Shown here piece after piece: positions 4,652 to 7,157 of a DNA stretch of 52,922 nucleotides. The DNA is from Chloroflexota bacterium (GTDB lineage: Bacteria; Chloroflexota; Anaerolineae; Anaerolineales; Anaerolineaceae), in the NCBI GenBank assembly GCA_021779955.1, contig JAJXZS010000013.1, positions 1-52,922 on the forward strand. The letters are read 5' to 3'. A model generated the notes under the pieces. The model did no database searches. It was given only the letters and a program-made list of their open reading frames with translations, and was not told where the DNA came from. Position 1 is the stretch's first letter, and each line of letters begins with the position of its first letter. The position numbers and the translations under genes are program-made.

Positions 4652-5149
4652 TCAAGCTCCAGGCACACGGGCGCGGGTCACTTGCGAGAGAGCGATCCCC
4701 AGAATCACCGCGACCAAGCCAACGATCAGAAATGCCGGTTCGGGCAATGTAATGCCAAGCGCAGCATCCAGCGAGTATGCTCCAGGGCCGGTGAAAGCCA
4801 GCGCAAGTGCAGCAGCAATGTTCGTCAATGGGAATTCGATGCCGCCCTTAGTGTTCCAAAAGCCGTGAGGGAAGTGAACCTGGATGATCGCGACGAGCAT
4901 CGAAGCAATGATCCCCAATGATCCCAACGGACTGAGAAATCCAAGCACAAGCAGCAAACCTCCGACAAATTCGCTGAGGGATGCAATTCCTCCCCAAAAC
5001 CATGCAGGACGCAAGCCCATCGATCCGATCCACTGCGTTGTCCCTTTCAGACCTGAGCCGCCAAAGAGCCCAAACAGCTTTTGACTGCCGTGACCCAAGA
5101 AGATCACTCCAAGCACGATCCTCAAAATCAATAAGCCAATGTTGAGCAT
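4652..5149 (-). CDS. DoxX family membrane protein
   Basis: A 165-residue integral membrane protein with about four hydrophobic helices, starting LLILRIVLGVIFLGHGSQKLFG, the typical DoxX N-terminus, followed by GGLLLVLGFLSPLGSLG and a short cytosolic tail. Family members are linked to quinone or sulfur redox chemistry and membrane stress, but the exact activity is not settled. The start was chosen because GGAGG lies 7 nt upstream; an ATG nine codons earlier has no such site. A 9-bp inverted repeat sits just upstream of the ribosome site. Confidence 0.85.
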   Translation of the reverse strand: MLNIGLLILRIVLGVIFLGHGSQKLFGLFGGSGLKGTTQWIGSMGLRPAWFWGGIASLSEFVGGLLLVLGFLSPLGSLGIIASMLVAIIQVHFPHGFWNTKGGIEFPLTNIAAALALAFTGPGAYSLDAALGITLPEPAFLIVGLVAVILGIALSQVTRARVPGA

Positions 5150-5162
5150 GCCAATCCTCCAT

Positions 5163-5189
5163 CGATATCTGCTCATTCATCAGATATCG
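5163..5189. promoter_or_regulatory. Inverted repeat upstream of doxX
   Basis: CGATATCTG (5163-5171) and CAGATATCG (5181-5189) form a perfect 9-bp inverted repeat with a 9-nt spacer, ending 14 nt before the DoxX start codon. The spacing fits either a dimeric repressor site or a hairpin in the leader. No regulator gene lies beside it. Confidence 0.45.
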
Positions 5190-5392
5190 CTTCTCAATTC
5201 AACTTCATGATCTATTTGATTGAACCGCCGCAGCAAGGTTACATCGGCTGCCAAATCATCAAATACTGTCGGCTGCACACTTGGAAACTTAGGAGTTATG
5301 TCGGCCAAGGTTGGCAAGCCGGAATCCAATGCGTTGACTTTGCTGATTCGAGTTCCTATAATCAAGCTAGAAAATAGGAGGAAGGTCGATGG

Positions 5393-6979
5393 ATGCCTGA
5401 TCTTACTTCGGTTTTGGGGTTATTGGCACTGATTTTTATCATTGCAGCGATTGTTTCCAATTTTGTAGAACGTGCGCCGATTTCATTTCCGATGATCTTC
5501 CTCGGCCTTGGGTTTATCCTGGGCGGGTACGGCCTGAAGCTCATCGCCCTGAATTTGCACGATCCAGCCCTAGATACGATTGCCACGCTCAACCTGGCAT
5601 TCGTCTTTTTCCTGGACGCGATCAATCTACGTTTCGATTTCATCCAAAAGAACTGGAAGGTTCCGCTGTTGACGACCGGTCCGGGGACGTTGATCACGCT
5701 CGCGCTGATTTCGCTTGGAGCTTATTTCGTTTTGCACCTATCGATCATCCAATCTTTGCTGGTCGGTACAGCGCTCGCCTCGGTCGACCCCGTACTGCTT
5801 CGGGATGTTGTGAAAGATGAGCGCATTCCGCGCTCGATCCGTGAATCATTACGAGTCGAAGCAGGGTCAAACGATATTATCGTTCTCCCGATCCTGCTAA
5901 TATTAATTGCAGTTGCACTTGGACAATCGCATACGGCGGCGGGTTGGCTGGTGTACTTTGGCCGGCTTTTTATCCTCGGCCCGCTCGCCGGGGCTGCAAT
6001 TGGAGCTGGGGGAGCTTTCCTGATCGAATGGATTCGAAAGCGAACGCCAATCAGCCGGCCTTATCGTGCCATTTATGGGATTGGGGTGATGTTCGCCGCA
6101 TATTACGTAGGAACATTGGTCAGCAGCAATGGACTTCTCGCTGTATTCGCTGCAGGAATTGCCACGGCATTACTGGACGACGACCTCTGCGACTGTTTCC
6201 TGGAATATGGAGAAATTTCCTCAGAAATGATGATGCTGCTCGCTTTTCTGTTATTTGGCATCGTCCTATCCGATCTGATCGCCGGTACGTCAATTCTTCC
6301 CATCCTGGCCTTTACGGCGTTGGTGCTGTTTATTGCACGACCAATGGCCATCGGTCTGGTGCTCAGGAAGGCGAACATCAGCAAGCAAGCGCTTTTGTTC
6401 ATGGGATGGTTCGGCCCGCGAGGGTTGAGCTCACTGCTGTTTGCCTTGATTCTTGTCACCTATGGGGTAGCCGGGAATGCGCAAATTTTGACGATCGTGG
6501 GAGTTGTCGTCGTCATCTCGGTGATCTTGCATGGGGTTTCTGCATCACCACTGGCAGCAAGATATGCAAGGATTGTGTCGAATGAAACTTTACCAGAAGA
6601 GCGCGTGGGAACTGCAGCCGGGCTGTATCCGTCGCAACCAGAAGATATTCCAAGAATTTCGGTAGAAGAGCTGGCAGACAGGCTGGCGGGCGATGATCCG
6701 CCAACTTTGCTGGATGTACGATCGCGTTCGTCCTACAGCCGGTCGACAACCAGGATTCCCGGAAGCATACGGGTAGTGCCAGATGAGATCCGTGAATGGG
6801 CGGCCGGAAAGTCGAAGGAGCACGACGTCATCACTTATTGCACCTGACCGGATGAAGCCACGAGCGCCCGTGTGGCGCAGGAACTGGTCAAGATGGGCTT
6901 TCGAGCCTCTGCCTTGAAGGGTGGCTTCAAGGCGTGGAGCGAAGGTCACCCGGTAGAACCAAAAGCGGGGGAAGAGTAA
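5393..6979 (+). CDS. CPA1 Na+/H+ antiporter fused to rhodanese; candidate selenoprotein (in-frame TGA 6845-6847)
   Basis: Reads as 528 codons if TGA codon 485 is decoded. Residues 5-385 form about 12 membrane helices of a CPA1-type cation/proton antiporter, with EAGSNDIIVLPI (the ND ion-binding motif) and a GWFGPRGLSS helix. A cytosolic rhodanese domain follows from about 422 (ISVEELADRL, LLDVRS, RIPGSI) to the active-site loop YCT-TGA-PDEATSARVA and a complete C-terminus (GGFKAW) ending in TAA at 6977. Relatives of this rhodanese type usually carry CxCP here, so TGA falls on the second Cys and selenocysteine is the natural reading. Without recoding the protein stops at 484 residues inside the catalytic loop. 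A fresh nonsense mutation or base-call error cannot be excluded. AGGAGGAAGG precedes the ATG. Confidence 0.7.
6845..6890 (+). promoter_or_regulatory. SECIS-like hairpin beginning at the in-frame TGA
   Basis: The TGA is the first triplet of a hairpin: UGACCGG (6845-6851) pairs with CUGGUCA (6884-6890) over 7 bp including one G-U. Inside, GCCAC (6857-6861) pairs with GUGGC (6872-6876), leaving a 10-nt apical loop that begins with G. Bacterial SECIS elements lie immediately 3' of the UGA, inside the coding region, with a G at the start of the loop. The distance from UGA to loop (14 nt) is slightly shorter than usual, and no energy calculation was made. Confidence 0.4.
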
Positions 6980-7157
6980 TCCAAAAGCATTGGACGAGGG
7001 CAGTATTTCATTTCAACCAAGGAGTGTTTTCGACCTTTTTTTCCGACTTGAAGTGTGATTTCTGAACGACTTTGTTTCTAAGTTTTGCACGTTGACTGAG
7101 TGTTCGGTTCTCCCATTCGGTAACAAAGAAGTGTATAGCTCTCTCTAACGCCCTGGA

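Follow-up and report, generated by a model that had tools for sequence, protein, structure and literature searches.

A predicted selenocysteine-containing rhodanese fused to a CPA1-type antiporter in Chloroflexota

Rhodaneses with a C-x-U active loop, in which U stands for selenocysteine (Sec), are already catalogued as selenoproteins: the part of PMC13188914 covered here lists 'rhodanese-like domain-containing protein form 3' (NF041203), together with a small number of transporters for which Sec is predicted, and a CxU rhodanese also appears in the covered part of PMC9312934. The words antiporter, exchanger and sodium do not occur in the main text of PMC13188914, nor does antiporter in the covered part of PMC9312934, and the covered passages of PMC1794560 and PMC1088965 that mention rhodaneses describe no antiporter fusion. 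A literature search limited to open-licence papers returned nothing relevant on an antiporter-rhodanese protein or an antiporter selenoprotein.

We analysed a 52,922-nucleotide stretch of DNA from a Chloroflexota bacterium (assembly GCA_021779955.1, contig JAJXZS010000013.1; hereafter 'the window'), in which a rhodanese domain with a predicted CxU loop is joined to a CPA1-type antiporter. A preliminary description of this DNA had called a Cys/Sec rhodanese on an ion antiporter unusual. The CxU rhodanese itself is, as noted above, a catalogued kind, and for the fusion we found no report in the open-licence literature. Within that literature, what appears to be new here is the predicted Sec rhodanese-antiporter fusion and a pair of fusion-specific cysteines, C266 and C268, in its antiporter half.

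Gene structure and domain content

The reading frame from the ATG at position 5393 holds a single internal stop before its terminal TAA, the TGA at codon 485, exactly as first described (Table 1). When read through, the sequence around this codon runs ITYCT, the TGA, PDEATSARVA and, further on, GGFKAW. The read-through protein scored 128.6 bits against Pfam PF00999, well above the gathering cut-off of 26.2, which places it in the CPA1 family, and a solved CPA1 relative (4cz8) matched at E 1.2e-4. Its score against the PRK05326 potassium/proton antiporter model of NCBIfam was 138.2 bits, below the equivalog cut-off of 355 for NF003716, and we therefore assign no transported ion to the fusion. 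The best NCBIfam rhodanese match was NF041203 (rhodanese_LYCAU, 'rhodanese-related (seleno)protein'; 95.9 bits, residues 415–524); since the curated cut-off of 115 was not reached, the fusion is filed as a relative of that family and not as a member. A single-sequence AlphaFold2 model of the fusion was unusable (mean pLDDT 42, pTM 0.26).

Table 1. Positions of the gene, its domains and its proposed recoding elements within the window
Feature	Position	Strand	Comment
Probable ribosome-binding site AGGAGG	5376–5381	+	11 nt 5' of the ATG; inferred from the sequence
Predicted antiporter-rhodanese selenoprotein CDS	5393–6979	+	528 residues with Sec485; TAA at 6977–6979
Na_H_Exchanger (CPA1-type) domain	5438–6556	+	Residues 16–388; Pfam PF00999, E 3.4e-37
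Cys266-Asp-Cys268	6188–6196	+	Predicted cytoplasmic loop, helices 9–10; 22/22 fusions, 0/26 unfused antiporters
Rhodanese domain	6659–6943	+	Residues 423–517; Pfam PF00581, E 1.9e-12
Cys483 codon	6839–6841	+	Opening residue of C-T-U loop; Cys in 22/22 fusions
Proposed Sec codon UGA 485	6845–6847	+	TGA in 22/22 column-spanning fusions
bSECIS-like hairpin	6864–6878	+	Stem GCGCC/GGCGC, loop CGUGU; loop 21 nt past the UGA

Conservation and predicted decoding of the TGA codon

The antiporter-rhodanese fusion is encoded in 24 of 400 genomes of the same phylum, the window's own included (long match, E < 1e-70). The next-best match in these genomes lay at E 1.6e-42, and a further search over 47 genomes found no fusion beyond those 24. 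Two of the fusions (L033 and L034) are cut short ahead of the rhodanese loop, at the edge of a contig or close to it; the 22 that span column 485, with identities of 36–55%, all carry TGA there, in the context [YW]C[TA]U, followed by 42 to 206 open codons. The chance of finding 42 open codons after the TGA, estimated from base composition, was 0.16–0.37 in the three copies tried, so that a lone open stretch of this length is not rare and one copy alone would prove little. Because the same TGA recurs across all 22 fusions, we regard a base-calling error in the window as very unlikely. Over the 40 codons past the TGA, three close pairs (L038–L040) gave dN values of 0–0.011 against dS values of 0.15–0.29.

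We extended the alignment to 46 standalone rhodaneses, namely those among the matches listed in the 400-genome search. Thirty-nine of these have TGA at the column, one (L093) has Cys and six have another residue; for fusions and standalone proteins of the phylum together, the count among the matches listed is 61 of 68 rows with TGA. Four homologues at a greater distance have Cys at this position: L093 and three named plasmid homologues (L128, L129 and L130) with loops reading YCVCPSE, YCTCPSD and YCVCPNE, the latter three picked from those among the matches listed (3 of 31 matched records). No Cys aligned with column 485 in the best solved-structure rhodanese matches, among the matches listed. 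The homologues mostly have Cys or TGA at the column, and the preliminary statement that relatives usually read CxCP(N/D)E needs amending, in that TGA is the commoner state among the relatives fetched within the phylum.

Four of the six standalone proteins with another residue (L105, L120, L121 and L124) have an in-frame TGA at another place in the loop. Of the loops of L105 and L120 (genomes G241 and G375) and of L121 and L124 (G081 and G089), two read Y-U-N-M-x-H and the other two YC-T/S-G-x-T-U-G. Separately, in four of the 46 standalone proteins among the matches listed (L083, L087, L101 and L113, from genomes G270, G121, G129 and G209) the first loop Cys is also replaced by TGA, which predicts a double-Sec (UxU) site encoded by TGA-x-TGA. 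In the rhodanese tree L087 falls beside L091 and L108, which are CxU copies, and away from the other UxU copies, so that the UxU change seems to have more than one origin. The motif UxU does not occur in the main text of PMC13188914.

Downstream of the TGA, the 54 following bases from 61 sequences could be aligned free of gaps, and in this alignment columns 20–24 pair with columns 30–34 around loops of CGUGU, CGUGC, CGGGU, CGGGC or GGUGC. The stem is paired in 99.3% of 295 cells, with two-sided changes at four of its five pairs. None of 500 shuffles reached any of five measures, a strong result that is not to be read as a probability because the shuffles ignore relatedness, and stems slid to other positions were at most 61% paired. 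The two-sided changes in L037, L041 and L102 alter both encoded residues while preserving the pair, a pattern not readily explained by selection on the protein alone. Serine at position +6 is encoded by AGC in all 22 fusions, as against 175 of 587 upstream serine codons. A stem of this kind is missing from the matching place in the Cys-type homologues L093, L128, L129 and L130.

Published geometry rules for bSECIS elements call for a loop of 3–9 nt, a stem of at least 4 pairs, a G within the first two loop positions and a distance of 16–37 nt from the UGA (PMC13188914, covered part). The window's hairpin has a 5-nt loop, a 5-pair stem, a G at position 2 and a distance of 21 nt. Folded alone it has an energy of −7.6 kcal/mol; the stability rule (MFE of −7.5 kcal/mol or lower) is passed by 37 of the 61 sequences, including 19 of the 22 fusions, and missed by 24. 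The outcome depends on the stretch that is folded: over +1 to +54, +4 to +42, +13 to +42, +16 to +42 and +16 to +54, the window's pair probability was 0.05, 0.59, 0.44, 0.99 and 0.00, and a value of at least 0.5 was reached by 50, 44, 56, 57 and 38 of the 61 sequences and by 16, 13, 20, 20 and 9 of the 22 fusions, in the same order. We infer that a ribosome stalled at the UGA would keep the first bases from entering rival folds. An Rfam scan of positions 6700–7060 gave matches at chance level only.

The machinery for Sec insertion is present in the window's own genome, where SelA (455 bits), SelB (324 bits) and tRNA-Sec (73 bits) were all recovered. The SelB gene (L004, G000:C19:22236-24111) lies in two pieces in different frames because of a run of unknown bases between them in the assembly. 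Among the other 23 fusion genomes, tRNA-Sec scored above 60 bits in 18 and a doubtful 47–49 bits in 3, and was not found in 2; SelA was found in 21 and not in 2; and each of the 23 has at least one of the two, SelA or a tRNA-Sec hit of more than 60 bits. The tRNA-Sec cut-off was passed by 327 of the 400 phylum genomes, so that the machinery is common in the phylum, its presence is permissive rather than diagnostic, and co-occurrence is weak evidence. The 19 comparison genomes (5 with SelA) were picked mostly for lacking a tRNA-Sec hit and form an unfair control. Two small genomes (G007 and G048) have a tRNA-Sec hit just above the Rfam gathering score and no SelA match; hits near the 47-bit cut-off, such as these, look like false positives.

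From these sequence comparisons we consider it very probable that UGA 485 encodes selenocysteine. This was also the initial reading of the codon, and it is supported by the TGA in 22/22 fusions, the compensatory hairpin and the presence of SelA, SelB and tRNA-Sec in the genome. Two of the three refuting conditions set out with the first description, absence of the Sec genes and homologues lacking Cys at the column, were checked, and neither refuted it. That the TGA is instead a true stop, which would leave a 484-residue antiporter followed by a decayed rhodanese remnant, strikes us as extremely unlikely: TGA is indeed an ordinary stop in these genomes (it ends L023 and L027, for example) and a single open run of 42 codons is not rare, but the TGA is retained along with an intact C-terminus in all 22 fusions, dN is low relative to dS past it in the three close pairs, and the hairpin is conserved through compensatory changes. 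The same use of UGA to terminate genes speaks against a changed code which, like near-cognate read-through, would place an amino acid other than Sec at this position. We judge such non-Sec decoding very unlikely, given the Sec machinery in the window's own genome, SelA or a strong tRNA-Sec hit in every other fusion genome and the Cys found at this column in more distant homologues; on its side are the window's hairpin, which is favoured in some of the folded stretches and not in others, and a tRNA-Sec that is doubtful or not found in 5 of the 23 other genomes. Since the assembly is a draft bin with 3.19% contamination and the gene occurs in none of 15 other genomes of the genus, a sequencing error or contaminant contig was weighed as well. 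This we find barely credible, as 21 further genomes carry the same TGA, an EPSP-synthase-family neighbour on the contig has close counterparts within the genus and the GC content of the gene (0.50–0.52) is like that of its surroundings.

Fusion-specific cysteines and a proposed thiol/selenol switch

Only four Cys/Sec columns (266, 268, 483 and 485) are conserved in at least 15 of the 22 fusions, and each of them is conserved in all 22. Columns 266 and 268 hold no Cys in any of the 26 unfused antiporters compared from this phylum, a set made up of 6 loci from the 400-genome search and 20 picked non-randomly among the matches listed. The two fusions that end before the rhodanese loop (L033 and L034) also carry the CxC. 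Residues D132, N160, D161 and R316 are common to all 48 antiporters (22 fusions and 26 unfused).

The C266-x-C268 motif sits in the loop that joins hydrophobic segments 9 and 10. NhaP-type antiporters have 13 helices, with the N-terminus outside and the C-terminus inside, and under this topology loop 9–10 and the rhodanese are both predicted to be cytoplasmic. With helix borders set by hand, the mean K+R content was 1.05, 2.32, 4.86, 3.95 and 1.50 for the loops assigned to the inside and 0 to 0.36 for those assigned to the outside, so that the charges of the loops other than 9–10 agree with the 13-helix arrangement; loop 9–10, with a K+R of 0.14, is acidic and uninformative on sidedness. The matching loop VIII–IX of NhaA presumably belongs to its pH-sensing face, which we take as a lead only.

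We propose that the gene encodes one selenoprotein, in which a 13-helix CPA1-type cation/proton antiporter would carry a C-terminal cytoplasmic rhodanese with the active loop Cys483-Thr-Sec485. SelB and Sec-tRNA would decode UGA 485 under the direction of the hairpin. The Cys/Sec pair of the rhodanese might take up sulfane sulfur or oxidising equivalents, or remove them, cycling among selenenylsulfide, persulfide and reduced states, and could exchange with Cys266/Cys268 on the same membrane face in a way that changes antiport, which would thereby follow the cell's thiol/persulfide state. Under selenium shortage, translation may end at codon 485 and give an antiporter without a complete rhodanese.

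The arguments for and against a CxU-to-CxC thiol/selenol switch on ion transport seem to us evenly balanced, and we place the whole explanation, Sec decoding and switch together, at the same midpoint. The fuller description of a selenium-dependent, sulfur- or redox-gated antiporter, in which CxU-CxC exchange of sulfane sulfur or a selenenylsulfide would set ion/proton exchange according to persulfide/redox state and, via UGA decoding, selenium supply, is tentative and a little short of an even chance. Redox or sulfur control of transport had been raised in the preliminary description; it gains support from the fusion-specific CxC (22/22 against 0/26) and is still a proposal. Somewhat under even, yet to be taken seriously, is the possibility that Sec is inserted and the rhodanese does not gate, the rhodanese being a selenium sulfurtransferase or thiol reductase anchored in the membrane, which shares a polypeptide with the antiporter for location, and the CxC serving another purpose, for instance metal binding. 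All of the evidence for Sec fits this equally well, CxU rhodaneses also stand alone in the phylum (TGA in 39 of 46 among the matches listed), and L128 combines a Cys rhodanese with a VTT-domain membrane protein of unrelated type; it leaves unexplained why C266 and C268 occur in 22/22 fusions and in 0/26 unfused antiporters.

If this explanation is right, an ion antiporter would join the short list of predicted Sec transporters, and the four residues C266, C268, C483 and U485 would form a concrete, testable circuit connecting ion homeostasis with the chemistry of selenium and sulfane sulfur. Gene callers that apply the standard code stop at the TGA and so lose the rhodanese half of these genes; the conserved hairpin offers a pattern for finding genes missed in this way.

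Origin, neighbourhood and comparison with known systems

At E 1e-30 the fusion was found in none of 60 relatives examined, 15 of them of the same genus. The EPSP-synthase-family neighbour on its contig is 75–79% identical in 9 of 12 same-genus genomes examined, and the gene has therefore, on this sequence evidence, probably been acquired horizontally, within a contig that is native to the genome. A rhodanese-domain tree of 66 of the 71 rows (leaving out L105, L120, L121, L124 and L126) placed the fusions in two groups of 11, compatible with one or two origins, and the same-family standalone CxU rhodaneses that were fetched (L085, L088, L092 and L127) lie far from the window fusion.

Around the window fusion and 20 of the 23 other fusion loci, the only families present in more than 3 loci were the fusion itself and an ABC-exporter-like family (5 loci), the latter named by eye from a rough picking of open reading frames that took antisense frames in some loci. 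None of the neighbour genes at these 21 loci supports a sulfur or redox role. With no neighbour widely shared, the proposed circuit would be contained in one polypeptide. Just upstream of the window fusion, and divergent from it, lies a gene for a DoxX-family membrane protein (Pfam DoxX; 4652–5176, minus strand). Some DoxX proteins act in sulfur oxidation.

The CPA1 Na+/H+ and K+/H+ antiporters (PF00999 and PRK05326 models) are the closest relatives of the membrane half, which shares D132, N160-D161 and R316 with 26/26 unfused proteins; it differs from them by the C-terminal predicted Sec rhodanese, by the fusion-specific CxC and by scores below the PRK05326 cut-offs. KefB and KefC are glutathione-gated K+ efflux systems that work through a nucleotide-binding domain and glutathione adducts, and are not known to use a rhodanese or Sec. 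The likeness of the fusion to them is by analogy, in that both would be cation antiporters under the control of thiol chemistry via a cytoplasmic domain. Cys rhodaneses with a YCxCP loop have the same loop with Cys replacing Sec, and L128 is likewise a membrane-protein fusion, but its VTT membrane domain is unrelated and all four Cys-type homologues lack the bSECIS-like stem. With the CxU rhodanese selenoproteins of NF041203 the fusion shares a single rhodanese domain, the C-x-U loop and a predicted UGA-encoded Sec, and it is set apart from them by its score of 95.9 bits, below 115, and by the joining of the rhodanese to a CPA1-type antiporter.
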